IMG/VR virus record: IMGVR_UViG_3300033145_000203
Coordinates: 1-26,123 of that record
Reading direction: 5' to 3' (one strand)
Length of the DNA stretch: 26,123 nucleotides
Origin: a virus
Under the pieces are notes generated by a model. It saw only the letters and a list, made by a program, of their open reading frames with translations, ran no database searches and was not told where the DNA came from. Positions 1,987 through 18,006 of the stretch are shown in pieces (position 1 is the first letter of the stretch; every line of letters begins with the position of its first letter). The translations under genes were made by a program, and so were the position numbers.

Positions 1987-2334
1987 ATGCGCTATAAATT
2001 AGCCAAACAACTTAAAGATGCATTAGCCAAACAACTTAAAGATGCTGGATGGGAACAAGAATTAAATTGGGGAGATTTCTATTATGATGATATAGCTCAA
2101 TTATTTGTAGCAGAAGTTGGTGATGTTATTGATAGGGATAAAGGAGAGTGTAAAGCACCAACCTTATCTGAACTTATAGATGCAACAACATCATTACAAA
2201 CTATACAAAAACACGCTTCTGGTTCAAAATGGTGGGCAAATTCAAGGGATGGTATAGGTCCAGTATGTGATAGCCCAGAAGAAGCAGTAGCTAAACTTTG
2301 GATTAAATTAAATGAAACTAACACTCTCAGATAA
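1987..2334 (+). CDS. Conserved phage hypothetical protein, 115 aa
   Basis: The product has a pattern that recurs in many phage genomes: KQLKDAGWEQ, then GDFYYDD, then APTLSELIDA, ending PEEAVAKLWIKLN. Its function is unknown; such proteins usually sit among small early or middle genes. The first 20 residues contain a perfect tandem duplication, LAKQLKDA twice, caused by a 24-nt repeat (1999-2046), so the ancestral protein was probably 8 residues shorter. The leader lacks a Shine-Dalgarno site and is A-rich, like the other small genes in this part. The 3' end overlaps the next gene by 23 nt. Confidence 0.65.
   Translation: MRYKLAKQLKDALAKQLKDAGWEQELNWGDFYYDDIAQLFVAEVGDVIDRDKGECKAPTLSELIDATTSLQTIQKHASGSKWWANSRDGIGPVCDSPEEAVAKLWIKLNETNTLR
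1999..2046 (+). repeat. Tandem 24-nt in-frame duplication
   Basis: Two adjacent 24-nt units (1999-2022 and 2023-2046) differ only at the last base (GCA versus GCT). The duplication is in frame and encodes LAKQLKDA twice. This looks like a recent slippage or unequal-recombination event at the start of the gene. Confidence 0.9.
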
Positions 2335-2467
2335 AGGGAAGAGGGTCTCAGTGAAGATTGATGAAAGAGACCTAGACCATGCTAAACAAATAGAGTTTAT
2401 AATAAATATTTTATTAAATAGATTAAATGATATGCCAGGAACACCAACAACAGCAGACGATTTGTAA
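2312..2467 (+). CDS. Small hypothetical protein, 51 aa
   Basis: ATG 2312 lies inside the end of the previous gene (23-nt overlap, different frame) and the frame ends at TAA 2467. The product (MKLTLSDKGKRVSVKIDERD...) has a short beta-like N-terminus, then a helical stretch (HAKQIEFIINILLNRL) and a tail MPGTPTTADDL. A GTG at codon 14 is an alternative start. No family is recognised. The composition is protein-like and the overlap is typical of packed phage genes. Confidence 0.5.
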   Translation: MKLTLSDKGKRVSVKIDERDLDHAKQIEFIINILLNRLNDMPGTPTTADDL

Positions 2468-2471
2468 CTTG

Positions 2472-2602
2472 TAATTTGGTTCTTTAATAGGAAATCTAGA
2501 TAGGTCATAACCCATACCTTGTGGGTTCTAGTGTGCCGTAAGGCTTTCCGTTAAGAGGCGGTTAAAGATATTAGTAAAAACACGAACGTGACCACCAAAT
2601 TA
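2472..2602 (+). ncRNA. Candidate structured RNA with closing stem and possible pseudoknot
   Basis: In the gap between two small genes, TAATTTGGT (2472-2480) and ACCAAATTA (2594-2602) form a perfect 9-bp closing stem. Directly inside on the 3' side, GGTCAT (2503-2508) pairs with GTGACC (2588-2593) including one G-U pair. Directly inside on the 5' side, TCTTTAA (2481-2487) pairs with TTAAAGA (2562-2568); these two helices cross, which would make a pseudoknot. Local hairpins include AACCCA/TGGGTT (2509-2514 with 2522-2527) and GCC-GTAA-GGC (2535-2544) with a GNRA-type loop. The segment is less AT-rich than nearby gaps. It does not match a tRNA or hammerhead pattern. It could be an uncharacterised phage RNA, ribozyme or cis-element upstream of the terminase. 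Confidence 0.4.
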
Positions 2603-2626
2603 TAGGTTATTAAATAAGTATATATA

Positions 2627-2743
2627 GTGCCAAACGCAAAGAAGAAGAAACAGAAGAAAGTGAGGAAACACCGTAGAAAGAAGATGTGGAGAAAATCTCG
2701 TCATAAACGGTTATTTGGTAGGTTAAAGAAACGTAAAAAATAA
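2627..2743 (+). CDS. Hyper-basic 38-aa micro-protein
   Basis: GTG 2627 to TAA 2743. Of 38 residues, 23 are Lys or Arg and two are His (VPNAKKKKQKKVRKHRRKKM...). An in-frame stop at 2615-2617 limits upstream extension, and there is no Shine-Dalgarno site; an internal ATG at codon 20 is an alternative start. Such composition recalls small ribosome-associated proteins (THX or COX24-like) and nucleic-acid condensing peptides, but no family can be assigned. The stop TAA is fused to the ribosome site of the next gene (TAAGGAGGG). It may bind the adjacent structured RNA or phage DNA; that is speculation. Confidence 0.4.
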   Translation: MPNAKKKKQKKVRKHRRKKMWRKSRHKRLFGRLKKRKK

Positions 2744-2752
2744 GGAGGGTAT

Positions 2753-3217
2753 ATGAATTTTAGAAAATGGTTTGAAAATGATTATAATTGGTATAGTAGA
2801 AATTCATGTGGAGATAAACTAGATGAGTTTTGGGATGATTTAGTTGAACATGAATTGACTTTTGAAGAAAAGGATATTGCCGAAAAATTTTGTTTTCAAA
2901 GTTTTCATAAAACCCCTAGTTTTAAATTAAAAGTAGGAGAATTAGCACACAAGTTTGATATAATTCATTTTTCTGCTAGATATTGTCAAAGAAAAGAAAT
3001 AACATGGTTAAGTCCTGGTTGTATCTATTTTAAAGATGGATTTCATTCTTCTGGTTATGGTAGACTTGATGAAAAATGGTTTGATTTATATGAATTTGTA
3101 GATGCTGGACTTATTCCATATAACAAAGCCATTAAGTGGATAGAAAATAAATTTTGGGATTATAGAGATGGATTACAAATAAAAATTAAAATGATAAAAG
3201 AAATTGTCATTAGCTGA
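2753..3217 (+). CDS. Hypothetical protein, 154 aa, upstream of large terminase
   Basis: A strong Shine-Dalgarno site (AAGGAGGG, 4 nt before ATG) supports the start. The product is unusually rich in aromatic residues, with many Trp, Tyr and Phe (MNFRKWFENDYNWYSRNSCG, later WFDLYEFVDAG and WIENKFWDYRDG), and has four Cys. No signal peptide, membrane segment or known motif is visible. It overlaps the start of the large terminase gene by 14 nt, which suggests coupled translation. The function is not recognised. The order places it in the late packaging operon. Confidence 0.6.
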   Translation: MNFRKWFENDYNWYSRNSCGDKLDEFWDDLVEHELTFEEKDIAEKFCFQSFHKTPSFKLKVGELAHKFDIIHFSARYCQRKEITWLSPGCIYFKDGFHSSGYGRLDEKWFDLYEFVDAGLIPYNKAIKWIENKFWDYRDGLQIKIKMIKEIVIS

Positions 3218-4556
3218 AGATTTTACACCTAGAAGCTGGCAGGCACAAATAATAGGAAATCCTAAAAAGGACATCCTAGAGGATAAAACAAAATACAAGG
3301 TAATCGTAGCCCACCGTAAGAGTGGGAAGACGGTTATGGCACTTATGTATTTGTTTATGAAAGCTTATCAGTGCCAAGCTGGTTTTTCAAAAGAGGGGGA
3401 CATGAGGGTTCCCCGTTTTACCTATATCGGACCCACTTACAAACAAGCTAAAGATATTGCTTGGGATTTACTCAAAGACATGGTTCCTAAGTGGTGTCTC
3501 CTTAAAAGACCAAACGAATCCAATTTAGAGATTAGACTTACGAATCGATGTATCTTGAACCTTAAAGGGGCAGATAAAGAAGATTCGCTTCGTGGGCCTG
3601 GCCTGTACTTTGCGTTGATGGACGAGTACGCATTCATGAAGCCCCATATATGGGACCAAGTTATTCGTCCTGAGCTAGGTCAAACAGGGGGTGATGCGAT
3701 GTTCATCGGCACTCCCAATGGCAGGGACCATTTCTATGACGTCTTCAAACTTGGGAGAGACGGTATGAATAATTGGAAATCCTGGCTTTTGCCAGCGACA
3801 CTTCCAACGCTCAGCCTAGAAGAGGGTACCCCACGGGGTCAGGATTTGCTCTCCGAAGGGTTCCTCGCCGAACAAAAAGAAACAACAATGGAAAGATTCT
3901 ACAAGCAAGAATACGAATGTGTATTCGATGATGATGCTGGTAGAGTTTTTTCTAAAATAGATAATGCTGTAGTAGATGAATGGAGAGAGTTTCCTGAAGC
4001 AGGTCACAGATACCGATTGGGTGTTGACCCTGCCTTACGTCAGGATTGGACAGTCATTTCTGTGATTGATTTAACTGATTGGAAAGTTAAATATGTTTAT
4101 CGTACTAACAAGGTAGATGCTGAATTGTTATATACAAAGATAGAGAATGAAGCTAACCGTTGGACTACAGATGCAGGGGCTCCAGAGATTCAGTTTGATA
4201 CTACAGGAATGGGAGACCCTATGTATGATTCCCTGACTAAAAAAGGTTTAGGAATCACACCAATAAAATTTACTAATAAATCAAAGATGCAAATGGTAGA
4301 ACAGTTAGAAGTTATGTTCAACCATGGAAATATAAAAATCCCTAGATGTGAGTGGCTGATAGATGAATTAAAAGAATATACCTATGAGAAACTTCCGTCA
4401 GGTAGATACCGCTATGGTGCTCCTTCAGGACGCCACGATGACGGTGTAACTTCTTTGATGCTTGCTACTTACAATCTTCCACCAAAGTTTTCAGTAACAA
4501 GAAGTAGTCAAAATACTAATCAACAATATAAATATAATAAATATACGGGTTATTAA
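3204..4556 (+). CDS. terL: Terminase large subunit (packaging ATPase and nuclease)
   Basis: This protein drives DNA into the prohead and cuts the concatemer. The ATPase domain shows a Walker A motif at 36-43 (AHRKSGKT), an ALMDEYA Walker B with catalytic Glu141, and the coupling motif IGTPNG at 168-173. The RNase-H-like nuclease domain shows its acidic residues in GVDPALRQD (Asp275), FDTTGMGD (Asp332) and RHDDG near 421. The 450-aa length is normal. The start is TTG 3204: an in-frame stop (3195-3197) bars longer forms, and the next residues (FTPRSWQ) match a typical terminase beginning. It overlaps the previous gene and is 2 nt from the portal gene. Confidence 0.95.
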   Translation: MSLAEDFTPRSWQAQIIGNPKKDILEDKTKYKVIVAHRKSGKTVMALMYLFMKAYQCQAGFSKEGDMRVPRFTYIGPTYKQAKDIAWDLLKDMVPKWCLLKRPNESNLEIRLTNRCILNLKGADKEDSLRGPGLYFALMDEYAFMKPHIWDQVIRPELGQTGGDAMFIGTPNGRDHFYDVFKLGRDGMNNWKSWLLPATLPTLSLEEGTPRGQDLLSEGFLAEQKETTMERFYKQEYECVFDDDAGRVFSKIDNAVVDEWREFPEAGHRYRLGVDPALRQDWTVISVIDLTDWKVKYVYRTNKVDAELLYTKIENEANRWTTDAGAPEIQFDTTGMGDPMYDSLTKKGLGITPIKFTNKSKMQMVEQLEVMFNHGNIKIPRCEWLIDELKEYTYEKLPSGRYRYGAPSGRHDDGVTSLMLATYNLPPKFSVTRSSQNTNQQYKYNKYTGY

Positions 4557-4558
4557 TT

Positions 4559-6322
4559 ATGCCTTATAAAGAATCGGGGGACAAATTAACAAGAAAAGTA
4601 AAGCTAGTGAAAGCTTTAGATTTGGTGACAAGTCGTTATAGTGTTGCCTCTGATTTTACGCAATCTTATTTTACAAGATTTCAAGAATACTACGAACTCT
4701 ATAGAAGTTATCTAAGAGAAGGTCAACTTCCATGGCGTTCAAATCTATTCATTCCAAAGACTTTTGAAATTGTAGAGACAATCGCTCCTCGGGTCGCTCA
4801 GGCTCAGAGGACTTTTAAGACCCTACCTGTAGAAGGAACTGACACAGCTAATGCTGAAGCCTTTACAGACTTACTAAAGTTTCAGTTTGCAAGGACTGAT
4901 ATGGAATCTATCATAGAGGAGCTAACCAAAGAAGCCTTGATTTATGGTACAGCAGTAGCGAAGGTTACTTGGAAAGATAATATGCCTAACCCTGAAGTTG
5001 TTGATATATTTGACTTCTTTCCAGACCCTAAAGCTAGGAATCAGGATGAACTTAAATATGTTATCCATAGGGTAGAAAGAGATATTAAAGATTTAGAGGA
5101 GAATCCAAATTATGATAAGAAGGCTTTAAAGCAATTAAAAAAAGGTACTGGCAGTGCACAAGATAATGAAGAAAGGTTACAGAGATTAGGGGTTATGGGA
5201 GTCACAGCAGAAGACGGTACAAGAAAGAGATATGAGGTTTTGGAATATTGGGGAGATTTTCAAGGCAAGAATTATATTATAGTAGTAGCCGATGGAATTG
5301 TACTTAGATGTGATGAGAATCCTTATGCTACTTGGAATCCATTTGTAATAGTAAGGGATACAATCATACCTCATGAGTTCTATGGTATTGGTGAGATTGA
5401 ACCTAACATGAGTTTACAGAATGAGTTAAATGATGTTAGGAATCAGCGAATGGATAACGTGAAGCTCAACTTGAACTCTATGTGGAAAGTAATTGCAGGT
5501 GGCGTTCAGTTTGAAGATGAACTTGTTTCAAGACCTGGTGGAGTTATTCATCTTACAAGACCAGATGGTTTGATTGCAAATGAAAGACAGACTGTACCAG
5601 CAGAAGCCTTTACAGAGGAATCAATTATCAAATCTGATATGGAACGGTCAACGGGTGCTAATAGTCCGCTATCAGGAGCCTTAGTATCGCCTATGGGTGG
5701 TACACAAGGTGGCGTGATTAACAGAACAGCGACTGCATGGCAAGGTGCTATCAATCAAGCTGACAAGCGATTTAACGCTAAGGTTAGCCAAATGAAACAG
5801 GGTATTATCAGAATAGGTAGAAAATTCCTAGAGCTTGACCAACAATTTATGGACCAACCAACTGTTATAAGAATTATAGGTAAAGAAGGGGAAGCCATGC
5901 TTGTTCCTTTATTACCAGAAGATATAAAATCTAACTTTGATTTAGATATAGAAATAGAATTCTTAGATGAATTTCAACAGATGCAACAAGACGTTCAACT
6001 CTTACAGACCTTGGCAAACGTGCCTGGGTTCAATGTGGCTGCTTTGGCTGCTGACATCATTGAGAAATCTGGTAAGAAGAATGTTGAGAAGTATCTACAA
6101 CCACCACAACCACCGCCACCAGAACCGCCAGAAGACCCGAAAGTTAACTTTAGCTTAAAGGGTGATATGATGCCTGATGCTGTAGCTCAGTTATTGGATA
6201 AAAAGGAAGGGATTAAATCTAATCCTGATGAGGTGGCAACCAAGATGAGAGAAAATAAAATATCTAATGCTGAGAAAGCAGCTAAGATACAAGAATCATT
6301 AACAACTAAAACAAACGTATGA
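4559..6322 (+). CDS. Portal protein
   Basis: The portal is the dodecameric ring at one capsid vertex through which DNA enters and leaves. The 587-aa product has the features of this family: an N-terminal region with LPWRSNLFIPKTFEIVET and APRVAQAQRTF (about 57-85), a charged central part, NDVRNQRMDNVKLNLNSMWK (about 291-310) resembling the stem/wing boundary of portals, and GGTQGGVINRTATAWQGA further on. The C-terminus carries a Pro-rich linker (QPPQPPPPEPPEDP) and a Lys-rich tail. The position right after the large terminase agrees. The stop overlaps the next start as ATGA. Confidence 0.9.
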   Translation: MPYKESGDKLTRKVKLVKALDLVTSRYSVASDFTQSYFTRFQEYYELYRSYLREGQLPWRSNLFIPKTFEIVETIAPRVAQAQRTFKTLPVEGTDTANAEAFTDLLKFQFARTDMESIIEELTKEALIYGTAVAKVTWKDNMPNPEVVDIFDFFPDPKARNQDELKYVIHRVERDIKDLEENPNYDKKALKQLKKGTGSAQDNEERLQRLGVMGVTAEDGTRKRYEVLEYWGDFQGKNYIIVVADGIVLRCDENPYATWNPFVIVRDTIIPHEFYGIGEIEPNMSLQNELNDVRNQRMDNVKLNLNSMWKVIAGGVQFEDELVSRPGGVIHLTRPDGLIANERQTVPAEAFTEESIIKSDMERSTGANSPLSGALVSPMGGTQGGVINRTATAWQGAINQADKRFNAKVSQMKQGIIRIGRKFLELDQQFMDQPTVIRIIGKEGEAMLVPLLPEDIKSNFDLDIEIEFLDEFQQMQQDVQLLQTLANVPGFNVAALAADIIEKSGKKNVEKYLQPPQPPPPEPPEDPKVNFSLKGDMMPDAVAQLLDKKEGIKSNPDEVATKMRENKISNAEKAAKIQESLTTKTNV

Positions 6323-6495
6323 AGAATTTAAAAAAAGTAGTAGAAAAAGTAATCATTCCTAAAGGGAGTAAACTTGATGGTATTGAGTTTGACATTAAAA
6401 TTGGTGTCACACATCACGATAACCCAGAAAATGCTGGTTATTTAAGAGGAGAAGTATCAATGTTAGAAAAGTGTAAAAAAGCATTAGGAGAATAA
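6319..6495 (+). CDS. Small hypothetical protein, 58 aa, coupled to portal
   Basis: ATG 6319 overlaps the portal stop (ATGA), and the frame closes at TAA 6495. The product (MKNLKKVVEKVIIPKGSKLD...) has a beta-like middle (GIEFDIKIGVTHHD) and a C-terminal stretch LRGEVSMLEKCKKALGE that is probably helical. The ATGA coupling makes it a real gene of the head operon. No family is recognised. A minor head or assembly factor is possible from context only. Confidence 0.6.
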   Translation: MKNLKKVVEKVIIPKGSKLDGIEFDIKIGVTHHDNPENAGYLRGEVSMLEKCKKALGE

Positions 6496-6499
6496 TTTT

Positions 6500-6805
6500 A
6501 TGCAGGAGGAAAAAACAGAGGTAGAAAGAAATAAAGATATATTAAATCAGGAGATTGGAAGGATTGATGTATATGACCGTTTATTACTCAACCCCGACTT
6601 TCAAATCTTCGAGAAAGAACTCATTGATAAAAAAGTTGAAATGCTTTTCGATATGCTTGAGACTTCCGAAGAAAAAGATTTGGGTAGAATTCGAGGTCAG
6701 ATTGAGGCCTTACGAGGAATTAAAAAAATATTCAGATTTACTCTTGCAAGAAAAGGAGAAATAAGAGAAAGAATGAACCTTTTAAATAAAGGAGGAAAAG
6801 GATAA
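6500..6805 (+). CDS. Coiled-coil head-module protein, 101 aa
   Basis: The product is almost entirely charged helix (RNKDILNQEIGRIDVYDRLL, then EKELIDKKVEMLFDMLETSE and RIRGQIEALRGIKKIFRF). Proteins of this size and shape commonly lie between portal and scaffold genes in phages with N4-gp56-type capsids; their job is not established, though an assembly chaperone is plausible. An AGGAGA site 10 nt upstream supports the ATG at 6500. A 5-nt gap separates it from the scaffold-like gene. Confidence 0.6.
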   Translation: MQEEKTEVERNKDILNQEIGRIDVYDRLLLNPDFQIFEKELIDKKVEMLFDMLETSEEKDLGRIRGQIEALRGIKKIFRFTLARKGEIRERMNLLNKGGKG

Positions 6806-6810
6806 CGTAT

Positions 6811-7596
6811 ATGGATAACGTTCAAGAATCCGCTACAACTACCCCGCAAGGACAAGTAGATGCGGAGACAAAGACGCCCGACACGTCAAGCGATGAAACC
6901 TCGCAAAACGATGCTGTTGGTGTCGAGCAACCAAAGACCCCTGAAAAGGGAGAATCTAAGGAAGTTGAAGAGAAGAAGTTTGAGATGCCTGAGAAGTTTC
7001 AAGGCAAGTCTGCCGAAGAAATTGCTCAATCGTATACCAAACTAGAATCTCAAAACACAAAAGTCGAAATGGAAAGGTCTGAGCTTGAAAAGCTCTTTGT
7101 GGACAAAACTGATGAGACCACCGAATCTACAAGTACACCTGAGAAACAGGTTGCTGATGATGTGAAATCAGTAATTGACCAAGCTCGCCCCGCTATACGG
7201 GAAGAGTTTAACAAATTACTATCACCAACCATCGCAAAACTGGAACTCACGGATATGCTTAATAGGCACGGTGATAGTTTCAAACAGGTTGCCCCACAAG
7301 TAGCTAATAAAGTAAAGGAAAACCCTTCTCTTTCGATGGAAGATGCCTTCAAATTAGTCAGTTATGACAACGTGAAGAGAACATCTCACACCCAAGGCGT
7401 TAATGAGGCCAATGCTAACGTAGAGGCCAAACAAAAAGCCCAAGTAGAAACAGCAAAACCATCTGGCATAAAACCAGTAGGTATTGATGAAGCTATTGCT
7501 GACAAGAATGTTGGCACAGCTGAAATTGCTGATGCTCTTGGACCAGAGTATGAAATGTTTAAAGAGATTTCAGACAGACGCTCAGGGAAGACATAA
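6811..7596 (+). CDS. Scaffold-like head assembly protein
   Basis: Scaffolds guide coat subunits into a prohead and are then lost. The 261-aa product has the usual signs: an acidic, low-complexity N-terminus (Thr, Glu, Gln rich, to about residue 55), then KFEMPEKFQGKSAEEIAQSY (about 56-75), a motif common in phage scaffold and head-morphogenesis proteins, then a helical central part. The C-terminal part ends in a short basic stretch (DRRSGKT), where scaffolds usually touch the coat protein. It directly precedes the major capsid gene. The start follows AAAGGAGG by 13 nt. The family assignment is by composition, motif and position. Confidence 0.75.
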   Translation: MDNVQESATTTPQGQVDAETKTPDTSSDETSQNDAVGVEQPKTPEKGESKEVEEKKFEMPEKFQGKSAEEIAQSYTKLESQNTKVEMERSELEKLFVDKTDETTESTSTPEKQVADDVKSVIDQARPAIREEFNKLLSPTIAKLELTDMLNRHGDSFKQVAPQVANKVKENPSLSMEDAFKLVSYDNVKRTSHTQGVNEANANVEAKQKAQVETAKPSGIKPVGIDEAIADKNVGTAEIADALGPEYEMFKEISDRRSGKT

Positions 7597-7621
7597 ATAA
7601 GGAGGTTAGAAGGCTAAACAC

Positions 7622-8773
7622 ATGGCATTTCCAAGTGGCACACCTTCTACTACAACCGCTGCTTCTTTAGGCAATACAATCACTTCTTACTATGATAAAG
7701 CGATGCTAGAATGGATGAGACCAAACTGGCGTTTCTATACTTTCGCAGCTAAGAAACCACTTCCGCAAAATGCGGGTTCAAGTGTTGTATGGAATAGAAA
7801 AGTTGCATTAGGACAACCTGGATTTGTTCTCTCAGAGGGCTATCCAATGTCTGGCAACAAGACTATTTCTACGAATAAAGTTTCAGCATTGTTACAGCAA
7901 ATCGGAGATACAGTTAATGTATCTGATTATGCAAGACTCACATCGGTAATTAACACTGATGCTTACGCAATGGAAATTATGGCTGACCAAGCCACAGATT
8001 CCGTTGAACAATACATCATTGAAGCTATCGTTGCTGACACACAAGTCAATCACTATGTAAAAGTAGATGGTGGACTATCAGGCAAAACAATCGGTGCGGC
8101 TAATGTAGGCGACCCTCGTCTATCATTACTCTCAGCAGGTATTAATGCCAGATTAGCATTATCAGATATTCGTGTAGCTGTTACTCAGTTACAGTCAGTA
8201 AATGCTCCTACTTATGATAACGAGAATAACTATCTCGGTATCGTTCATCCAAATCAACTTCAGACTCTATATTCTGACTCATCCTTTAGTGGTTGGGCAC
8301 AATATCAGAATCCTGAAAAGATGTATGACTATGAAGTAGGTAAGGTATTTAATTGTCGTGTAATGACTTCGACAAAAACTCCAATAGCTCCAGGTTCATC
8401 TTTATCAGCGGAAATGTTCTCAATGGATTCTGCCTCGGCATACAAGACGTATGGCATGGTAATATTCGGCAAAGACGCTTTCGGTGTTACAGAGATTGAC
8501 GGGGGCTTCAAGACTTATAAGGAATCTGGTTCTCAGAAATCAGACATTCTCAATATGCAGGATGTATATGGTTGGAAAGCCAATATTGCTTCTAAGGTTT
8601 TGAATCCAAGTGCAGTTTGTGTACTTTGGAATCAACTTGGAGAGAAAATCTATACGGGAGATAATGAAGATGTATTAGGAAACTCTGGGCGTTATGCCAA
8701 GGGTCATGGATGTAATGTCCTGTTCCCAAGTACATTGACAGATTTCTTCGAGACGATTTTCCAAGCGTACTAA
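7622..8773 (+). CDS. Major capsid protein, N4-gp56 family
   Basis: The 383-aa coat protein builds the icosahedral head (HK97 fold). Diagnostic for the N4-gp56 family are the beginning with a Ser/Thr-rich arm and ITSYYDKAMLEWMRPNWRFY, the PLPQNAGSSVVWNRK segment (about 48-62), TVNVSDYARLTSVINTDAYA (about 97-116), and the late FGKDAFGVTEIDGG (about 282-295). An AAGGAGG site is 16 nt upstream of the ATG and a second purine site (AGAAGG) is closer. It is followed by two strong hairpins, consistent with the end of a high-expression transcript. No tail-tube or adaptor genes follow; instead glycan genes begin. Confidence 0.93.
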   Translation: MAFPSGTPSTTTAASLGNTITSYYDKAMLEWMRPNWRFYTFAAKKPLPQNAGSSVVWNRKVALGQPGFVLSEGYPMSGNKTISTNKVSALLQQIGDTVNVSDYARLTSVINTDAYAMEIMADQATDSVEQYIIEAIVADTQVNHYVKVDGGLSGKTIGAANVGDPRLSLLSAGINARLALSDIRVAVTQLQSVNAPTYDNENNYLGIVHPNQLQTLYSDSSFSGWAQYQNPEKMYDYEVGKVFNCRVMTSTKTPIAPGSSLSAEMFSMDSASAYKTYGMVIFGKDAFGVTEIDGGFKTYKESGSQKSDILNMQDVYGWKANIASKVLNPSAVCVLWNQLGEKIYTGDNEDVLGNSGRYAKGHGCNVLFPSTLTDFFETIFQAY

Positions 8774-8786
8774 TGTAGTAGAAAAA

Positions 8787-8831
8787 CAAAACTCACAAGT
8801 TTTGATACTAGAGGGAACTTCGGTTCCCTCT
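8787..8831 (+). terminator. Tandem hairpins after capsid gene, second with UUCG loop
   Basis: CAAAACT (8787-8793) pairs with AGTTTTG (8798-8804) around CACA. Six bases on, AGAGGGAAC (8810-8818) pairs perfectly with GTTCCCTCT (8823-8831) around TTCG, the very stable C(UUCG)G tetraloop. The second hairpin is not followed by a T-run; the first ends in TTTTG, which is a weak tail. They lie 14-58 nt after the capsid stop and 13 nt before the first glycan-gene ATG. A role in termination, mRNA 3'-end protection or throttling of downstream expression is likely. Confidence 0.65.
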
Positions 8832-8843
8832 GGGACAAAGTTT

Positions 8844-9743
8844 ATGCGAGTAATGATTAGCGGGTCAAATGGTTTTATAGGTTCACATCTAATGGAGTAT
8901 CTTGAGAATAAGGGATACGAAGTTATTGGGTTGGACAACGGTAGATGGTCTACTAGAAGGATGCACAACACCGTAGAGGGTGATATTAGGGATAAAGGGT
9001 TAGTTGACTTACTTGTTTCTCAGGTAGACGAGGTTTATCATTTAGCGGCTCAGATTAATGTAGATTATGGGAATGAACACCCAGAAGAGACAGTAGATAT
9101 AAATATTCAGGGAACGCTTAATTTATTAGAGGCGTGTAGGAAGCACGGAAAGCGAATGATATTCGCATCAACCAGTGAAGTATATGGCAGTTCGCAAACC
9201 GAAAAAATCACAGAAGAACACCCCCTCGACTGTCAAAGCATCTACGCAGCATCGAAAGTCGGTGCTGATAGACTCTGCAAGTCGTACTCAGATGCCTACT
9301 CCGTGGATGTCCGCATACTTAGAAATTTTAACACGTTTGGACCTTACCAAAGGTTTGATAGTTACGGAGGAGTTATCTCCATATTCACGGATAGAGCACT
9401 ACGTAATAAACCCCCAATTATCTATGGCGATGGAGAACAAGAAAGAGATTACATCTGGATTACTGACGCTTTGGCAGGATATGAATTGGTTGCCGAGAAA
9501 GGAATACCAGGAGAGCCGATTAACGTGGGCTCAGGTTACACTGTCACCGTTAATAGAATCGCAGAACTTATCAGACGTTATACGGGATGTCCTGAACCGA
9601 TACATACAAAACCACGACCAGGGGAAGTCAGGAGGCTCTGTGCAGGAATCGATAAAGCCAAAAGATTAGGTTTTAATCCATCAACAAATTTTGAGAAACA
9701 TTTAGAGGAATATATTATATGGCGAAAAAGTTTGCTCTTATAG
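8844..9743 (+). CDS. NAD-dependent sugar-nucleotide epimerase/dehydratase (extended SDR)
   Basis: Acts on an NDP-sugar through a 4-keto step. The Rossmann motif GSNGFIG is at 7-13; the STSEVYG motif at 109-115 supplies the active-site Thr; YAASK at 134-138 holds the catalytic Tyr and Lys. The Thr-Ser-Glu form is seen in dehydratases and decarboxylases (GDP-mannose 4,6-dehydratase, UDP-xylose synthase) as well as some epimerases, so the substrate is not decided. ATG 8844 is chosen because it begins right at the Rossmann strand; a longer TTG start at 8802 would translate through the hairpins. The end overlaps the next gene by 25 nt. First gene of glycan island 1. Confidence 0.88.
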   Translation: MRVMISGSNGFIGSHLMEYLENKGYEVIGLDNGRWSTRRMHNTVEGDIRDKGLVDLLVSQVDEVYHLAAQINVDYGNEHPEETVDINIQGTLNLLEACRKHGKRMIFASTSEVYGSSQTEKITEEHPLDCQSIYAASKVGADRLCKSYSDAYSVDVRILRNFNTFGPYQRFDSYGGVISIFTDRALRNKPPIIYGDGEQERDYIWITDALAGYELVAEKGIPGEPINVGSGYTVTVNRIAELIRRYTGCPEPIHTKPRPGEVRRLCAGIDKAKRLGFNPSTNFEKHLEEYIIWRKSLLL

Positions 9744-10570
9744 GAGCAGGAGGGTATGTCGCCCCAAAACATTTAAAAGCAATTAAGGATGTAGGCGGTC
9801 AGCTAATAGCTGCCGTAGACAAACATGATTCATTAGGGATACTTGACAGTTACTTCCCTAACGCTGATGTCTTTACAGAGATAGAAAGATTTGAGAGACA
9901 TCTAGAGAAATTAAAACGACAAAATAACCCCGTAGATTATGTATCCATTTGTACCCCAAATTATTTGCACGATTCTCATATCAGGCTTGGCCTTAGAAGT
10001 GGTGCAAATGTTATTTGCGAGAAACCGTTAGTCATTAACCCTGATAATATTTGGTCTATAAGATATATTGAAAAAGAGACTGGTAGAAAAGTTTATCCAG
10101 TCCTACAGCTTAGACTACACCCTAAGATAAAAGAGTTAAAGAAAAGAGAATATAGTTCAGAAAAAAAAGTTAAAGTTTATTTAGATTACCTTACTCCTAG
10201 AGGTAATTGGTATGACGTTTCCTGGAAAGCTAAACCTGAGTTGTCTGGTGGAATGGCAATGAATATAGGAATACATTTCTTTGATATGCTTATCTACTTA
10301 TTTGGAGAGGTTCAGTTGTTTACCCGTAATAAATATTATAAGGAGATAACTGGAAGTTTAACCCTAGAGAAGGCTGAGGTTTCCTGGAGACTATCCATAG
10401 AAGGCAATGAACCAAAAAGGTTTATGTTAATAGATGATGAGGAGATAGATTTCACAGATGGATTTACTGATTTACATACAGAAGTTTATAAAGAGATATT
10501 AGAAGGTAGGGGTAACTCTATAGAAGATACCCATAGTGCAATAGAATTAGTTAATAATTTAGGAGGATAA
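9719..10570 (+). CDS. wlbA: UDP-GlcNAcA 3-dehydrogenase (WlbA/WbpB family)
   Basis: Oxidises C3 of UDP-N-acetylglucosaminuronic acid with NAD, the first step towards diacetamido-uronic acids. It is a Gfo/Idh/MocA oxidoreductase: Rossmann motif IGAGGYVAPKHLKAIKD at 8-24, EKPL at 101-104, and active-site NIGIHFFDML with His186. Several stretches (DYVSICTPNYLHD at 73-85, YPVLQLRLHP, RGNWYDVSWK) are close to the WlbA/WbpB subfamily as I know it, not just the superfamily. At 283 aa it is about 30 residues shorter than usual, with losses in the middle rather than of active-site parts. A GAGGA site precedes the ATG. The next two genes encode the following two pathway steps. Confidence 0.88.
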   Translation: MAKKFALIGAGGYVAPKHLKAIKDVGGQLIAAVDKHDSLGILDSYFPNADVFTEIERFERHLEKLKRQNNPVDYVSICTPNYLHDSHIRLGLRSGANVICEKPLVINPDNIWSIRYIEKETGRKVYPVLQLRLHPKIKELKKREYSSEKKVKVYLDYLTPRGNWYDVSWKAKPELSGGMAMNIGIHFFDMLIYLFGEVQLFTRNKYYKEITGSLTLEKAEVSWRLSIEGNEPKRFMLIDDEEIDFTDGFTDLHTEVYKEILEGRGNSIEDTHSAIELVNNLGG

Positions 10571-10571
10571 T

Positions 10572-11510
10572 ATGATACCACTACTAAGACCACCTATCAC
10601 AAAAAGTGATGCTAAGGCGGTAACAGAACAATTACTCTCTGGTCAGTTAGCTGGAGGGAAAATAGTTACAGTGCTAGAAGAAGAGTTTGCAGAATATGTA
10701 GGTTCTAAGTACGCTATCGCAGTTGATAGTTGTACTTCTGGATTTATTGCAGTTCTTCAGATGTTGAAACCGACAGTTATGAATATGCCGTCAGCAACTT
10801 ATATCTCGATAGCTAATGCAGCTAAACAGATGGGAGTTCAGATAAATTTCCGAGATGGTTGGGTAGCAGGTAAGGCTTATGATATTGTAACTGATAAAGG
10901 TATTATTGTTGATTCTGCTCATGTACTTGAATGGGGCGTTACACAAAAAAATAAAGAAGCTATTTGGTTGTTTTCATTTCATGCTACTAAACTTTTGGCT
11001 ACTGGTAAAGGTGGAATGATAACCACTAACTCAAAAGAACAATATAATTTTTTAAAGACATTAATAAACAATGGGAGAGTTTATGGTAATAATAGTTTTG
11101 AATTTACTGTTCATACTCCTGGGTGGAATTACTATATGTCTGATTTGGTCGCAGCCCTAGCACTATCTCAGCTTAAAAGATTAGATGAAACAAATAAGAA
11201 ACGGGATGAGGTTAAAAAATTATATGATAAATATTTAGTTTCAGATAAACGAGATAATTGGAGTAGATATATCTATCAGGTATGGATAGAGAATTTTAGA
11301 GAATTTTATAAATACGCAAAAGAAGAAGGAATACAAGTATCAAAACATTTTAATCCTATTCATAGACAACCAGCATTTTATACAAAACAAAATTTACCGA
11401 TAGCTGAGGAAATGGCACAGTACATGATTTCTATACCATTTTGGGCTGATATGAAAAAAGAACAAGTAGAAGAAGTATCTAATTTTATAAATAATTGGAG
11501 GGAAAAATAA
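10572..11510 (+). CDS. wlbC: PLP sugar aminotransferase (WlbC/WbpE type, DegT/DnrJ family)
   Basis: Transfers an amino group from glutamate to the 3-keto sugar made by the previous enzyme. The PLP lysine is Lys140 in SFHATKLL, followed by GKGGMITT; the PLP-ring Asp is Asp114 in VDSAH; the N-terminus [17 protein letters not shown] is typical. Length is 312 aa against about 360 for WbpE, the loss being mostly between residues 70 and 110, so it is a trimmed version. A strong site (TTAGGAGG) precedes the ATG, 1 nt after the previous stop. Family membership is sure; the exact substrate is inferred from its place between wlbA and wlbB homologues. Confidence 0.82.
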
Positions 11511-11511
11511 T

Positions 11512-11967
11512 ATGACACAAGCACAAGATTTTTTCCAATACATGGTTTTACAAGGTGGTGAAGTTGGAGAAGAATCAAGGATAGGACATAATTGTGTTAT
11601 CTTTCCTAACGGAAAAGTTGGGAAAAGATGTAATATACAATGTAATACAAATATATATTACGGAGTAACTTTAGAAGATGATGTATTTATAGGTCCAAGT
11701 GCAACATTCACAAATGATTTAAACCCAAGGGCCTTTAAGCCTAAACCACCAGGTAATATGATTCCAACTCTTGTTAAAAAGGGTGCTTCTATAGGAGCAA
11801 ATGCTACTATTTTATGTGGTATCACTATAGGTGAGTATGCTGCGGTAGGAGCAGGAGCATTAGTAATAAAAGATGTACCACCTTATACACTTGTAGCTGG
11901 TAATCCAGCAAGGGTTATCAAAAAAATAACAAAGAATTGGAGCTTAACAAATAAGAAGAAAAAATAA
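11512..11967 (+). CDS. wlbB: UDP-3-amino sugar N-acetyltransferase (WlbB/WbpD type)
   Basis: Acetylates the 3-amino group to give UDP-GlcNAc3NAcA. The whole 151-aa protein is a left-handed beta-helix of hexapeptide repeats ([13 protein letters not shown]-type turns, then [33 protein letters not shown]) closed by [11 protein letters not shown], which is the usual C-terminal signature. The loop [15 protein letters not shown] and the following [15 protein letters not shown] match the WlbB/WbpD group. It starts 1 nt after the previous stop, in an unbroken wlbA-wlbC-wlbB-like series. The length is short compared with about 190 aa for WlbB. Confidence 0.85.
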
Positions 11968-11968
11968 T

Positions 11969-14194
11969 ATGGAGGACAAAAAAATAAGTGTAATCACACC
12001 ATCATATAATGATGGAGACACACTAAAACTACACATTGAGACATTTCTAGACCAAGATTACGAAAATAAAGAGTTAATCTTAGTTGATGATGGTTCAACA
12101 GATAATACTAAGAAAATTTTAAAAAAATATGAAAACAATAAAGAGATTAAAATTGTATATTTCGGGTCTAATCGTGGGGCTTGTCATGCTCGGAATGAGG
12201 GGGCAAAAATCGCTACAGGCGATGTGTATTCGTTTCTACCAGCGGATTCGTTCTTAAAGCCAGGGCTTCTTACAATATGGATGCAAATGCTAGATGAGAA
12301 TCCTGATTGTGGATTTATATATGGTGGTTATTCGTTCGTTGATAATGAAATAAACAAACCTACTTGGGATGGTGGAAGGATGGTAATGCCTTACCATTCA
12401 CAAGATTTTGATGTTCGTGAATTAAAGACTGCTAACTATATAGATGGCTCTTATCCTTTAAGAAAAGAGGTCTATTGGGGAGCTGCTAAGAAAATGGGTA
12501 TGAAAGACGGTTTATGGAATCCCCAGGTTAAATCCTTACAGGATTGGGACTTCTGGTTATCTGTGGTTGTAGATTATGGGGCTAAAGGAAAATATTATAA
12601 TTCCCTATTCTTCGAGACAACCATACCGCACGAAGGTGGCTTATCATTTGATTCTTCAAGAAATTGGTTAGGTAGGATAAAACAGATAAAAGCATTACAT
12701 AACATACCAGAATCTAAGCTTTGTGTTACTGCTCCTTGGGCTAAATTTCATGGAAAAGCTGTAGCTAAAGTATTAGATGCTGATTATCAAGAGTACCCAC
12801 CATATAAAGAACATGATTATAATGTAATTTATGTAGTAGGATTCTTCTGTTATAACTTTGAAGATGCCAAGGGACTATTCATGTCTCCTAAATTCTTGCC
12901 AAAAGTAAATGCTTTAAGGGCAAGTGGAAAATGGGATGGAGTATATCCACTAAGTAGGGGTAAAAGATTAATACATTTTATAGGTTCTGATATTCTAACA
13001 CTACACAAGATGACACTAGAGAGACTTGTTGCTGTAAGAGCATTTTTAAGGACTTGTGAAGTATTCTCTGAAATAGAAGCAACACAATTAGAACTAAAAA
13101 AATTAGGTATTGAATCTGATGTTGTACCTTTCCCACCAAAGAAATGGTATGACGTTCAACCATTACCAAAGAAGAAAGCAATAGCAATATATATTCCGAA
13201 AGCAAATGAATTGTTTTACTTCAGGCACGCTTTTCTAGGACTTGGTAAAGAAAAAGGATTAATACACATGATGCCAGACGTAGATTTCCATGTATTCGGT
13301 AATATACAAGAGATTGCCCCAGTAAAAGCAAAGAATTATAAGAATTGGGGTTATGTAGATGGAGTTCAAGATATTATAAAAGAAACATCTGCGATTATAA
13401 GGATAACCCAACACGATGGCTTGCCAATTAGCGTAGCTGAATGGATAGGTGCAGGTAGAAATGCTTTGACTACGGTTAAGATGCCACACGCTGACCACTA
13501 TAGTTTGCTTGAGTTTGGCAAGAGACATAATAATCAAGGCACAATGCCTCAATTATTAAAAGAACTTAAAGCTGCAATCTATAAAGTATTAGAGAAACCC
13601 CTCAATGAAGAGGGTGCTAAACATTATCGTAAATGGTTAGATGCTGATAAGTATAGAAATACTATCAAGGAGTATTGTACTTATAATGAGAAACGATATT
13701 GGGATAAAAGAGCAGACGCTTGGAACGAACAAACCGAAACAGATGTAGTAAAAAAGGACAAGCTACGAGGGATAATACAATCACTTAGCTTTGATTCTGT
13801 ATTAGATGTAGGTTGTGGTAATGGAAGATTTACTTCGATGTTTGATGATAAGGAATATAGTGGATTTGATATATCAGAACGACTGATAGAAATTTGTAAT
13901 GAGAGATTTCCTAAAAAAGATTTCTTTATTAGTTCGGTTGAAGAAGTTGATAAACACATGGAAGGCAAAGTTGATTTATTATTCTGCTACACAACACTAG
14001 AACACGTACCACATGAAAATATACAGAAAGCGATAGATGCCTTAAAGAAGGTTGGTAAGAATCTCTTGCTTATAGAGCCAAAGGATTTTGTACCTACTGA
14101 TAATTATTGTTTCAATCATGATTATAAGAAACTCTTTAACGTAAGGAAACGCTGGGGCATGGGAGATAAATGGGCTTATCTTATAAAACTATGA
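11969..14194 (+). CDS. Three-domain fusion: GT2, GT4-like and SAM methyltransferase
   Basis: A 741-aa protein with three enzyme-like parts. Residues 5-240: GT2 glycosyltransferase (ISVITPSYNDGD, VDDGSTDN at 39-46, SNRGACHARNEGA); the usual acidic metal site reads PADS rather than DxD. Residues about 283-540: a GT-B/GT4-like part with HFIGSDILTLHK and the late motif HDGLPISVAEWIGAG. Residues about 572-741: class I methyltransferase with motif I VLDVGCGNGRF near 611 and a CYTTLEHVP motif. Such a chain could add two sugars and methylate the end. No transmembrane segments are seen, so it is probably cytoplasmic. It follows wlbB by 1 nt, and its stop overlaps the next ATG as ATGA. Confidence 0.85.
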   Translation: MEDKKISVITPSYNDGDTLKLHIETFLDQDYENKELILVDDGSTDNTKKILKKYENNKEIKIVYFGSNRGACHARNEGAKIATGDVYSFLPADSFLKPGLLTIWMQMLDENPDCGFIYGGYSFVDNEINKPTWDGGRMVMPYHSQDFDVRELKTANYIDGSYPLRKEVYWGAAKKMGMKDGLWNPQVKSLQDWDFWLSVVVDYGAKGKYYNSLFFETTIPHEGGLSFDSSRNWLGRIKQIKALHNIPESKLCVTAPWAKFHGKAVAKVLDADYQEYPPYKEHDYNVIYVVGFFCYNFEDAKGLFMSPKFLPKVNALRASGKWDGVYPLSRGKRLIHFIGSDILTLHKMTLERLVAVRAFLRTCEVFSEIEATQLELKKLGIESDVVPFPPKKWYDVQPLPKKKAIAIYIPKANELFYFRHAFLGLGKEKGLIHMMPDVDFHVFGNIQEIAPVKAKNYKNWGYVDGVQDIIKETSAIIRITQHDGLPISVAEWIGAGRNALTTVKMPHADHYSLLEFGKRHNNQGTMPQLLKELKAAIYKVLEKPLNEEGAKHYRKWLDADKYRNTIKEYCTYNEKRYWDKRADAWNEQTETDVVKKDKLRGIIQSLSFDSVLDVGCGNGRFTSMFDDKEYSGFDISERLIEICNERFPKKDFFISSVEEVDKHMEGKVDLLFCYTTLEHVPHENIQKAIDALKKVGKNLLLIEPKDFVPTDNYCFNHDYKKLFNVRKRWGMGDKWAYLIKL

Positions 14195-14997
14195 GTAAAC
14201 CATTAGTATCAATAGTCTGTCCTTGCTATAACAAGGCACAAACATTAGGACAATCAATTCAGTCTATCATAGACCAGAGCTTTACAAACTGGGAGTTAAT
14301 TTTAGTAGATGATTGTTCCACAGACAATACCCAGGAGTTACTCAATACAATTCACTTACAGGATATTGATGAAAGTAATATAAGGAAGGATAGGCGAATC
14401 AAAAAGGTTTACCTCCCAATGAACATGGGAGTCGTAGCAGCATATAGGCAAGGGATTATGAAGGCTAGGGGTAAGTATATAATGTTTCATGATTCAGATG
14501 ATATGTCCTTACCAGACAGGATAGATAAGTGTTTAGCAAATATAGGAGACGCAGACGTGCTCTATCACGGATTATATCTGATAGCAAAACACGCTATAAA
14601 TCCGACAACAGCTAGGAGATATAAGACAGTTCAGGAGTGGACACCAGATAGAATTTATACAGAACAATATATTCCAGGAATTATCTTTGCAAAAGCAAGT
14701 CTATTAAAGAAGGTAGTTTTTCCCAAAGAAGCTAAAAACGCTTGGGACTGGATGCACCATATACTCTTACACCAGATGGGTGCTAAGTATGTAGCCTTAA
14801 ATGAAGGACTATATGAATATTTTAGATTCCCAGGAAACTCATTGAGTTATAGTAATGAAGTAAGTGGAGCACGACAAAAGTCCATAAAGTGGATTCAGCA
14901 ATATTTGATAAAAAATAAGATAGTAAAGAAAAATCATAAGTTCGGTAAAGGATTTATGGCTTATATTGGAGATAAAAAAGAACAACCTAATATATAA
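14191..14997 (+). CDS. Family 2 glycosyltransferase
   Basis: Transfers a sugar from an NDP donor (GT-A fold). The signature is complete: VSIVCPCYNKAQTL at the start, LVDDCSTDNT for the nucleotide, and MFHDSDDMSLPDRI for the metal. No membrane anchor is visible in 268 aa. The start is taken as ATG 14191, which overlaps the previous stop as ATGA; an upstream in-frame ATG at 14170 would add seven residues inside the previous gene. It is followed at 9 nt by the 2-epimerase gene with its own strong Shine-Dalgarno site. The acceptor is unknown. Confidence 0.88.
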   Translation: MSKPLVSIVCPCYNKAQTLGQSIQSIIDQSFTNWELILVDDCSTDNTQELLNTIHLQDIDESNIRKDRRIKKVYLPMNMGVVAAYRQGIMKARGKYIMFHDSDDMSLPDRIDKCLANIGDADVLYHGLYLIAKHAINPTTARRYKTVQEWTPDRIYTEQYIPGIIFAKASLLKKVVFPKEAKNAWDWMHHILLHQMGAKYVALNEGLYEYFRFPGNSLSYSNEVSGARQKSIKWIQQYLIKNKIVKKNHKFGKGFMAYIGDKKEQPNI

Positions 14998-15006
14998 GGA
15001 GGATAT

Positions 15007-15999
15007 ATGAAAAAGAAAATACTAAGTATTTGTGGGACTAGACCACAGATATTCAAACTAGACCCAAACTTATCAGATGTAATTGTTGACACGGGTCAGC
15101 ATTATGATAAGAATATGGCGGGTCAACACTTTAAGGAAATGAAGATTAAGCCCAAATACAATTTAGGTTGTACTTCAGATGAGGTAGGGAAAATGATAGA
15201 TAAGTTAAGGGATGTCTTAAAAAAAGAGAAGCCAGATGTAGTCTTGGTCTATGGTGATACTTATTCCACCTTAGCAGGAGCAATAGCTTGTTCACTAGAG
15301 AATATACCTTTTGGACACGTTGAAGCAGGATTACGCTCTTATGACAAATCAATGCCAGAGGAAACTAACCGTATTGTAGCAGATACATTAGCTTCATATA
15401 AGTTTTGTCCAACACATCACGCAATAGAAAACCTACAAGAAGAAGGATTGGGTAAAAATTCCTATTATGTAGGAGACCAACTATATTGGTCAATGAATTA
15501 CTTTACTCCAATTAAAAGAGCAAAAGACTTTCAAAAATTTATCTTTGCATCCGTGCATAGACAGGAGAATTTAGAACCTGATAACTTAAAAGAAATATTA
15601 GAAGGTTTTGGGTTAATAGACTTACCAATCTATCTTCCTTTACATCCACACACAGCAAGAATAATAAAGAAGAATAGATTAAAAGTACCCAAGAATATAG
15701 AGATAGTAAAACCTCAAACAAGAAAAAAAACACTAGAAAGAATATTTAATTCAAGTATGGTCATTACAGATTCAGGTGGAGTACAAAGGGAAGCTTACTG
15801 GCTCTTAAAAAAGAGTATCATAATTCGTTCTGTAACAGAATGGACAGAGATAACTGATAGAGGTTGGGGAATGCTTGTAGCACCAAATGCTAAGAGAATA
15901 GTTGATACATATAAGATTTTCAAAGATAAAGAACCAGCAGAGATACCATTACTACCTAAACATAATCCTTATCAAGAAATTAAATATCTATTAACATGA
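15007..15999 (+). CDS. wecB: UDP-GlcNAc 2-epimerase family (WecB/WbpI)
   Basis: Non-hydrolysing epimerase that converts a gluco- to a manno-configured UDP-sugar. Motifs present: CGTRPQ (GTRPE in most), VDTGQHYD at 27-34, Asp84 in YGDT, Glu106 in HVEAGLRS, Glu118/119 in PEETNR, His184 in VHRQEN, and TDSGGVQREA. All catalytic acidic and His residues known for WecB seem kept. At 330 aa it is 30-50 residues shorter than WecB. With WlbA, WlbC and WlbB homologues in the same series, the substrate may be UDP-GlcNAc3NAcA (WbpI/WlbD activity) rather than plain UDP-GlcNAc; sequence alone does not decide. A strong AAGGAGG precedes the ATG. Confidence 0.87.
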   Translation: MKKKILSICGTRPQIFKLDPNLSDVIVDTGQHYDKNMAGQHFKEMKIKPKYNLGCTSDEVGKMIDKLRDVLKKEKPDVVLVYGDTYSTLAGAIACSLENIPFGHVEAGLRSYDKSMPEETNRIVADTLASYKFCPTHHAIENLQEEGLGKNSYYVGDQLYWSMNYFTPIKRAKDFQKFIFASVHRQENLEPDNLKEILEGFGLIDLPIYLPLHPHTARIIKKNRLKVPKNIEIVKPQTRKKTLERIFNSSMVITDSGGVQREAYWLLKKSIIIRSVTEWTEITDRGWGMLVAPNAKRIVDTYKIFKDKEPAEIPLLPKHNPYQEIKYLLT

Positions 16000-17180
16000 A
16001 AAAAATACCAACAATATTCTTCTACATAACGCAACAAGATGGTGTAGGGTATTACCGAATGATAAAACCTGCAAAGATGCTAGAGAAGCTAGGTCTAGCA
16101 AAAATTATAGTAAATCCATTTAGTCCATACGGAAATAAAAAAGAAACATGGTTAGATTTACACCCAGATGAAAAGGGTGTACCAAAGTGTGCTTACAAAC
16201 TTACAAAAGCTCTTGGTAACATAGGAGTAAAACCAAAAGCAGATGCCATTATAATGCAGAGATATGATACTGTCAGTATTTTAGCCTTAGGTATGGCTCT
16301 TAAAATGTATGGGATACCAATTTTACAAGAAACAGATGATTATGTATGGGATGTTCCAGGTTCAAATCCAGGAAGTCTATCGTACAATGAAAAGAAACTT
16401 GAACAACAAAATACTCCAGAAGACCCAAACACAGTAGCTAGAATGACACAAGGTTTATTTGATGGATATATCGTATCAACACCATTTTTAAAAAATTATT
16501 ACAGTACCTTTGCTCCAACTTATGAGTGTCCCAATTCAATAGACTTTTCTAAAAGGAATATGGCTAAAAGAAAAGGGCATAAGGGTATTAGAATAATGTT
16601 CTCAGCTTCTGCTGGACATTTAGATAGTTTGAAATTGATTGAAAGAGCAATGGATATAATATTAAAGAAATATCCTGATGTTACTTTTTATCAGAACAGA
16701 TTTCTACCGAGTATAGGTAAGGGAAGACCTTATAATAGACGGGTAAAATTAATAGACTGGATAAAACCAGAAAAGTATCCTCACCTTATAAATTCACTTG
16801 AGCCAGATATTTGTCTAGCACCATTAAGGGATAGACTCTTTAATAGGGCTAAATCAAATCTTAGACTTCTAGAATATTGGACATCAGGAAAGAACGCAGT
16901 AATAGCATCACCAGTAGGACATTATAAGGATACTGCTACGGAAGGAGAGAATATTCTCTTTGCTAGAGGCACAGATGAGTGGGTAGAGAAGATTGAGCTT
17001 TTAATAAAAGATGAGAAACTCAGAAAGAAGTTGGGTGTTAATGGATATAATTTAGTTAAAAAAGATTTTAATTTAGAAACAAATGCCAGAAAATGGGCAG
17101 ACGCCATCAAGGAATCCATCAAGAATTACGACCCCGATAGGGAGCCACCCAAGCAATTCCTCCCCCCAGAGCTTCGCTAG
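15996..17180 (+). CDS. Family 4-like glycosyltransferase (GT-B fold)
   Basis: A 394-aa GT-B protein. The N-terminal half begins PTIFFYITQQDGVGYYRMI and includes LQETDDYVWDVPG; the C-terminal half has RIMFSASAGHLDSL for the nucleotide domain and the GT4 signature LLEYWTSGKNAVIASPVGHY with DGEN-like EGENILFA after it. GT4 enzymes are retaining and need no metal. The start overlaps the epimerase stop (ATGA). The final segment (EPPKQFLPPELR) is Pro-rich and probably disordered. Last gene of island 1. Confidence 0.85.
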   Translation: MKKIPTIFFYITQQDGVGYYRMIKPAKMLEKLGLAKIIVNPFSPYGNKKETWLDLHPDEKGVPKCAYKLTKALGNIGVKPKADAIIMQRYDTVSILALGMALKMYGIPILQETDDYVWDVPGSNPGSLSYNEKKLEQQNTPEDPNTVARMTQGLFDGYIVSTPFLKNYYSTFAPTYECPNSIDFSKRNMAKRKGHKGIRIMFSASAGHLDSLKLIERAMDIILKKYPDVTFYQNRFLPSIGKGRPYNRRVKLIDWIKPEKYPHLINSLEPDICLAPLRDRLFNRAKSNLRLLEYWTSGKNAVIASPVGHYKDTATEGENILFARGTDEWVEKIELLIKDEKLRKKLGVNGYNLVKKDFNLETNARKWADAIKESIKNYDPDREPPKQFLPPELR

Positions 17181-17208
17181 TCCAGAAGGGGCACAGGTTC
17201 TATTTGGA

Positions 17209-17550
17209 ATGGAATTTCCAGAGGCTACTAACTTAGAGGAATATTATGTTTCTCAAAAGAAGCCTTATGGTTTAGAATACTTTGGAATAGAAGATGGGTT
17301 TGAGACTTATAATACCTATGCACAAGAAATTGATGATTTTATTAAAGGGGAAATAGAGAATAATTTATTAGAAAACTCACTTGGAACTTATAGGGCAATA
17401 ATTGAAGAGTTGATGTTATCAATGGGATTAGATTCTAAGTTAGATACAATAGAGAAATTTAAAAAGGTTCACGGGTGGATTAAGAAAGTAATTAAACCAC
17501 AAAGATTATTGGAGGAAAAAAAGAAGAATATATTATATGGCAAAACCTGA
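17209..17550 (+). CDS. Hypothetical phage protein, 113 aa
   Basis: The product (MEFPEATNLEEYYVSQKKPY...) is acidic in its first half and basic and helical in its second (KFKKVHGWIKKVIKP). The open frame extends back to 17083, but that part is antisymmetric low-complexity sequence inside the previous gene, so the ATG at 17209 is preferred. No family is recognised. It does not resemble glycan enzymes and, with the next gene, it interrupts the two glycan islands. It may be a displaced part of the original late operon (head-tail region). It overlaps the next gene by 14 nt. Confidence 0.55.
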   Translation: MEFPEATNLEEYYVSQKKPYGLEYFGIEDGFETYNTYAQEIDDFIKGEIENNLLENSLGTYRAIIEELMLSMGLDSKLDTIEKFKKVHGWIKKVIKPQRLLEEKKKNILYGKT

Positions 17551-17995
17551 AGCAACACAATTAGATGCACACGAATTAGAGTTACATTCAACGGATACTG
17601 ATAACTTCCCCTACATTAAAATACGGGGGGGTTTATATTGGGATGCTAAAGATGAGAGTTGGATTAAACATCCAGGTCAGATGGTGTTGGGAACCGATGG
17701 AGATAAAGATGCTGATTATGAAATTGCTCTAGTGGCAAATACAGCTACCCAGATTCCAGCAGCTGCTAGTGTACCAGATTACAATTATGTATTGGTGCTT
17801 GGGAATAGAAGTAATACTGATATGGTATGGGGTAATTCAACAACAATAGTAGTTGGTGGGGTTATAGGTATGGGAATACCCATTGTAAGCGTAAGAGGGG
17901 CAATGAATATAAGAATGTCTGCTGATAAATTTATTTATGTAGCCTGTGCCGCAGCAAAAGAAATAAATTATACAATTTTTCAAATAAGAAATTAA
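17537..17995 (+). CDS. Probable virion-associated protein, beta-rich, 152 aa
   Basis: The product is beta-rich and Ala/Val/Thr-rich with no catalytic motif. Segments such as YVLVLGNRSNTDMVWGNSTT and SADKFIYVACAAAKEINYTI look like small decoration or head proteins of phages, where an ordered 'signal of solvent value, unit norm, coordinate' style of alternating strands ends in a hydrophobic edge strand. Similarity is only impressionistic. The start ATG follows AT-rich sequence, with GGAGG about 23 nt upstream. It is encoded between the two glycan islands, like the preceding gene. Confidence 0.5.
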   Translation: MAKPEATQLDAHELELHSTDTDNFPYIKIRGGLYWDAKDESWIKHPGQMVLGTDGDKDADYEIALVANTATQIPAAASVPDYNYVLVLGNRSNTDMVWGNSTTIVVGGVIGMGIPIVSVRGAMNIRMSADKFIYVACAAAKEINYTIFQIRN

Positions 17996-18006
17996 AAGAG
18001 GATAAT

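Follow-up and report, generated by a model that had tools for sequence, protein, structure and literature searches.

The locus raises the question of whether an intergenic segment shortly before the terminase gene of an uncultured virus folds into an RNA of its own and, if so, what that RNA might do there. The window (the whole stretch of DNA analysed, a record of 26,123 bases from an uncultured virus) carries an upstream 51-aa ORF, the segment, a microprotein gene and terL, all on the + strand. The earlier note had pointed to a hyper-basic microprotein and packaging genes beside the segment, and both are found there, with terL ~600 nt downstream. It had also proposed a candidate new structured RNA at 2472–2602. 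That proposal is borne out by three observations: no Rfam match, a diverged homologue with compensatory changes, and no reading frame common to the two copies, in agreement with a region that is not translated. We regard it as very probable that 2464–2610 on the + strand is a real structured RNA.

The limits of the element are wider than first drawn. The perfect 9-bp stem 2472–2480/2594–2602 is present, but it is only the inner part of a closing helix, P1, which runs uninterrupted for 17 bp (2464–2480/2594–2610) with some G-U pairs. Within these limits the + strand folded to –43.9 kcal/mol (z-score in Table 1), whereas the limits of the earlier note gave a z of only –2.22. The – strand of the same segment gave a z of –0.95. 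For the homologous copy described below, z was –3.57 on the + strand and –1.61 on the – strand. With the 5' motif held fixed, the adjacent layout of P1, P2 and P2a was recreated in 4 of 20,000 shuffles of the remainder of the element, and in 0 of 20,000 for the homologous copy.

TerL and portal searches of IMG/VR yielded a small phage group with 64–72% identical TerL. One related contig, L082 (IMGVR_UViG_3300028920_000646; TerL 72% identical), holds a second copy, which has GGTTTGGTTCTTTAAGTAGGG... from ~1051 and sits between a UDP-glucose dehydrogenase-like gene and the small terminase (TerS) gene. A window-only covariance model retrieved this copy over its whole length, L082 1048–1167 being the sole non-self locus in 736 kb (28.7 bits, E 0.0025). 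Over P1, P2 and P2a, 10 of 25 aligned pairs were altered on both sides and still paired, and one was broken (n = 2 sequences). Compensatory changes occur in the closing stem, in the helix 2503–2508/2588–2593 abutting it, which pairs as the earlier note had described, and in the 6-bp hairpin 2509–2514/2522–2527, which is present and extends to 8 bp. The third proposed helix, 2481–2487/2562–2568, crossing the second, did not hold up in the same way: the window has the perfect 7-bp complement, but L082 has UUAUCUAA in place of UUAAAGA, without a comparable partner, and the helix is not maintained.

In the alignment used for pair counting, which was fitted to the structure of the window and is biased towards it, 98% of cells paired, 0 of 500 shuffles reached these values, and sliding the partners by 1–3 columns lowered pairing from 98% to 30–41% (about 40% for a shift of one column). 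Independent folds of L082 and an inverted-repeat search gave the same P1, P2 and P2a without that alignment. P1 of L082 also extends outwards, with 20 of 22 positions pairing when G-U is included (arms judged by inspection). No tool alignment of the two copies brought the 5' motif into register together with the 3' strands of P1 and P2. Each copy is a single metagenomic assembly, and two sequences give covariation, no phylogeny.

Table 1. Features of the element and its flanks in the window, with the corresponding L082 features where given
Feature	Position	Strand	Remarks
Upstream ORF	2312..2467	+	51 aa, ends PGTPTTADDL; stop inside P1
Whole structured RNA element	2464..2610	+	~147 nt; z –4.39, 0/200 shuffles equally good; homologue L082 1038–1177
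P1 5' strand	2464..2480	+	17 bp; includes TAA stop 2465–2467 of upstream ORF
Conserved TTTGGTTCTTTAA-TAGG	2475..2491	+	Inner P1 and the 5' bulge separating P1 from P2; 13 bases unchanged in L082
Earlier note's crossing helix, 5' side	2481..2487	+	Partner 2562–2568; present, not conserved
P2 5' strand	2503..2508	+	6 bp; 6 aligned pairs (window vs L082): 3 both-sided changes, 1 one-sided, 0 broken
Hairpin P2a	2509..2527	+	8 bp, CCU loop; L082: 7 bp, CCC loop; 8 aligned pairs: 4 both-sided changes, 1 one-sided, 1 outer pair broken
Hairpin GCC-GUAA-GGC (GNRA)	2535..2544	+	A hairpin is also possible at this site in L082, with other stem and loop
Conserved CC-(G)TTAAGAGGCGGTTA	2548..2564	+	SD-like purine motif in weak hairpin
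A-rich single-stranded linker	2575..2587	+	Before P2 3' strand; UAAAAACA in window, UAAAACAA in L082
P2 3' strand	2588..2593	+	Abuts P1 on 3' side
P1 3' strand	2594..2610	+	Partner of 2464..2480; 11 aligned pairs (window vs L082): 3 both-sided changes, 1 one-sided
Downstream basic microprotein	2627..2743	+	GTG start 16 nt after P1

Comparison of the two copies shows an architecture in which a long P1 is stacked on P2, followed by P2a and a UAAGAGGNGGUUA segment, with an unpaired 5' bulge UUCUUUAA..UAGG. On the 3' side, P1 and P2 follow each other directly or almost directly in both copies; on the 5' side a bulge of 15–23 nt lies between them, which opens with the invariant single-stranded UUCUUUAA and has UAGG inside it. 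A second single-stranded stretch conserved between the window and L082 is UAAGAGGNGGUUA, and TAAGAGGNGGTTA is identical in L082 in all but one base. The GNRA-capped hairpin that had been pointed out is there in the window sequence, but its GNRA loop is not kept in L082; nor is the helix 2528–2534/2568–2574 conserved. Weak alternative pseudoknots can be drawn as UUUAA/UUAAG in the window and as UUUA/UAAG and UAGGG/CCCUA in L082, where the bulge UAGGG is able to pair with the loop CCCUA; the window has AGG/CCU only. The letters of these alternative pairings show no informative variation, which leaves the comparison neutral as to a pseudoknot.

Further copies were sought widely. The window-only covariance model gave no match in a further 844 kb of loci and only the L082 contig again in 727 kb. 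A structural descriptor applied to 3.06 Mb of loci placed the two copies top (58 and 56, background 54 and below), and a third copy was absent from these fetched loci, all of them covered by the descriptor and most by the covariance model. Exact-pattern scans, which would miss copies with altered motifs, returned only L082 as real from IMG/VR, the other matches being judged coding or chance by their context and P1 pairing, and 0 copies from 84,980 species genomes. A genome search with the window model missed even the known L082 copy, and its empty result shows nothing. When each copy was compared with phage records by blastn, nothing significant emerged; a 115-aa ORF query found no relatives, and no close cultured relative was found for this phage group.

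Among the relatives, the RNA is absent upstream of terL in L083 and L084, and in L198 and L199 a PGTPTTADDL-type mini-ORF lies upstream of terL without the RNA or the microprotein there. In L199 the flanking genes are present and the insert is missing. With four relatives lacking it at this place, the RNA appears optional in the phage group; the absence refers to this place, as most relatives are fragments and could carry the RNA elsewhere. Its neighbours are not fixed among relatives. The mini-ORF end PGTPTTADDL, or a near form of it, was seen upstream of terL at 2427–2467 in the window, 414–460 in L198 and 2104–2148 in L199. A homologue of the microprotein (RHKRLFG core) occurs at a different locus in L085 (~3590–3698), with an ATG start and no such RNA in front.

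Several other features were seen in the window and its relatives. A second non-coding block (window ~1600–1700, L082 ~190–330, L083 ~1390–1560, L199 ~1545–1660) has G-runs and then CTATATTxTGG..CACAAAG..CTATATTACA in all four contigs with sequence there, and its place relative to TerS varies. It folded no better than shuffles and may therefore be a signal at the DNA level, either cos/pac or regulatory. At its start, the 115-aa ORF has a tandem duplication (window ~1990–2045, LAKQLKDA repeated). An HNH endonuclease gene lies between terL and portal in L082 (3399–3815) and not in the window. Downstream of the capsid genes, window 8802–22513 carries sugar-nucleotide, glycosyltransferase and methyltransferase-like genes, a run partly common to L082 (translations read by eye).

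The element belongs to none of the families searched. Rfam 15 gave no match at gathering thresholds, and a permissive search of 2300–2800 gave chance matches only, all outside 2464–2610. The statement that tRNA and hammerhead patterns do not fit agrees with our searches: ARAGORN found no tRNA or tmRNA in the window, and no self-cleaving ribozyme family in Rfam matched. The EAR (epsC) covariance model did not match either, no reverse transcriptase Pfam match that would point to a retron ncRNA was present in the neighbouring ORFs, and no described terminase-adjacent structured RNA was found in the literature. Examples of orphan structured-RNA motifs known from phages and metagenomes are manA and wcaG (PMC2864571). 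Like them, the present element emerged from structural comparison in uncultured phages and has a function not assigned from sequence; unlike them, it comprises only two copies, does not lead a sugar-metabolism gene, and matches neither motif in sequence or structure.

We next consider the function of the RNA. Both copies lie in sense orientation 0.6–0.9 kb upstream of terL, and in both the stop codon of the upstream gene falls within the P1 5' strand, the upstream genes being unrelated (the 51-aa ORF in the window and the UDP-glucose dehydrogenase-like gene in L082). The distance from the end of P1 to the next start is 16 nt in the window (2610 to GTG 2627) and 18 nt in L082 (1177 to ATT 1196), and the downstream start is non-AUG in both copies where homologues have ATG, although rating such starts as unusual rests on a small sample. 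The downstream genes also differ, microprotein in the window and TerS in L082. For the L082 TerS (1196–1588), homology begins at the ATT behind AAGGA, right after the RNA; there is an in-frame stop just upstream of the ATT and no ATG, GTG or TTG before 1337, and the ATT could be an assembly error. The terL of the window itself starts with TTG.

This recurring stop/start geometry suggests a cis action on the ribosome or on mRNA fate between cistrons. Our preferred reading, held tentatively, is that 2464–2610, a compact structured RNA domain presumably transcribed with the late packaging genes, may act as a cis intercistronic element. Since the stop codon sits in the P1 5' strand, ribosomes translating the upstream gene would keep P1 open. 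Upon termination P1-P2 would close, which would bring the upstream stop spatially near the weak non-AUG start just past P1, and in this way re-initiation at the downstream cistron, or its protection, would be tuned. With only two copies, the spacing and start-codon coincidences could be due to chance. The differing downstream genes are odd for a cis regulator, and close relatives do without the RNA at this position.

A more specific version of cis action seems unlikely to us: the two copies would represent an undescribed phage RNA family that hands a terminating ribosome over ~130 nt of folded RNA to a non-AUG start. It is just as doubtful that the long helix would join stop to start with a conserved ribosome-docking motif, and that this would be a bacterial termination-reinitiation element that needs neither an AUG nor a strong Shine-Dalgarno nearby. 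The anti-SD duplex of the SD-like core was –9.5 in the window and –16.2 in L082, where it is the best + strand anti-SD site of the 11.6 kb contig. In the window, 89 sites match the 16S tail as strongly as the core does, which weakens a general Shine-Dalgarno reading of it; because the core is unremarkable there, ribosome docking is not a general explanation. In T4 gene 60 and calicivirus TURBS, structure beside a stop codon influences the fate of the terminating ribosome. The present element shares with gene 60 bypass and TURBS the structure next to a stop codon, and differs in that its flanking genes are separate proteins and no matched take-off and landing codons were seen.

The nearest competitor to the cis element is a trans-acting phage small RNA, which would be cut from the late transcript and would either act on targets of host or phage or bind a protein or the 30S subunit. 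We hold this possible but less probable, and likewise its corollary that P1 joins the ends of the RNA while binding would occur via the conserved unpaired motifs. The long helix does join the 5' and 3' ends, the most conserved bases are largely in bulge and loop, and the RNA is optional within this group of phages. Because the two copies share neither of their neighbouring genes, a trans-acting RNA is nearly as likely as the cis element. On the other hand, a consensus scan found no promoter-like site directly before the element and no terminator after it, and the element directly adjoins both flanking genes, P1 itself containing a stop codon. It is this stop codon, together with the non-AUG start 16–18 nt beyond P1, that leads us to favour the cis mRNA element.

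Processive antitermination and packaging are less likely than either. EAR/epsC and HK022 put are structured cis RNAs inside long operons, and the present RNA likewise lies within a long operon. An antitermination element of this type (HK022 put, Bacillus EAR) near the late operon head would fit the sense orientation before terL and ~20 kb of co-directional genes, sugar-modification genes included, as well as the non-conserved neighbours. We nevertheless consider it improbable, as the RNA has no Rfam match although the EAR (epsC) family is in Rfam, and downstream terminators are not above chance: terminator-like sites in 3200–23190 numbered 14 against 10.8 expected, with only three on the + strand, all within the terL coding sequence.

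A packaging RNA, or a structured pac/cos signal used by the terminase, is highly improbable. Known pRNAs have a gp16-type ATPase partner and assemble by interlocking loops (PMC6765105, PMC5340915). The element resembles phi29 pRNA in being phage-encoded, of similar size, with its ends joined by a helix and near packaging genes (in both phages its surroundings include the TerS, TerL and portal genes). Here, however, the motor is an ordinary one, as the earlier note had said, a Terminase_6N/6C TerL with a TerS-like gene rather than a phi29-type gp16 packaging ATPase; the two copies differ in where they lie relative to TerS, the Rfam phage pRNA model does not match, and close relatives whose TerL is 64–72% identical have no such RNA at this place. 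The comparison with packaging RNAs drawn earlier thus finds no support. A DNA-level inverted repeat or mobile element end is about as improbable: presence is patchy and L199 carries the flanking genes but no insert, yet each genome has a single copy, only one strand shows the G-U pairs and the fold excess, and covariation extends over three separate helices.

The locus thus adds a new phage RNA with comparative support that is in no library. If it governs the translation or stability of packaging genes, RNA architecture would control the terminase operon in an ordinary TerL/TerS phage, and the AUU-started TerS behind the RNA in L082 is a specific, testable case of unusual initiation.
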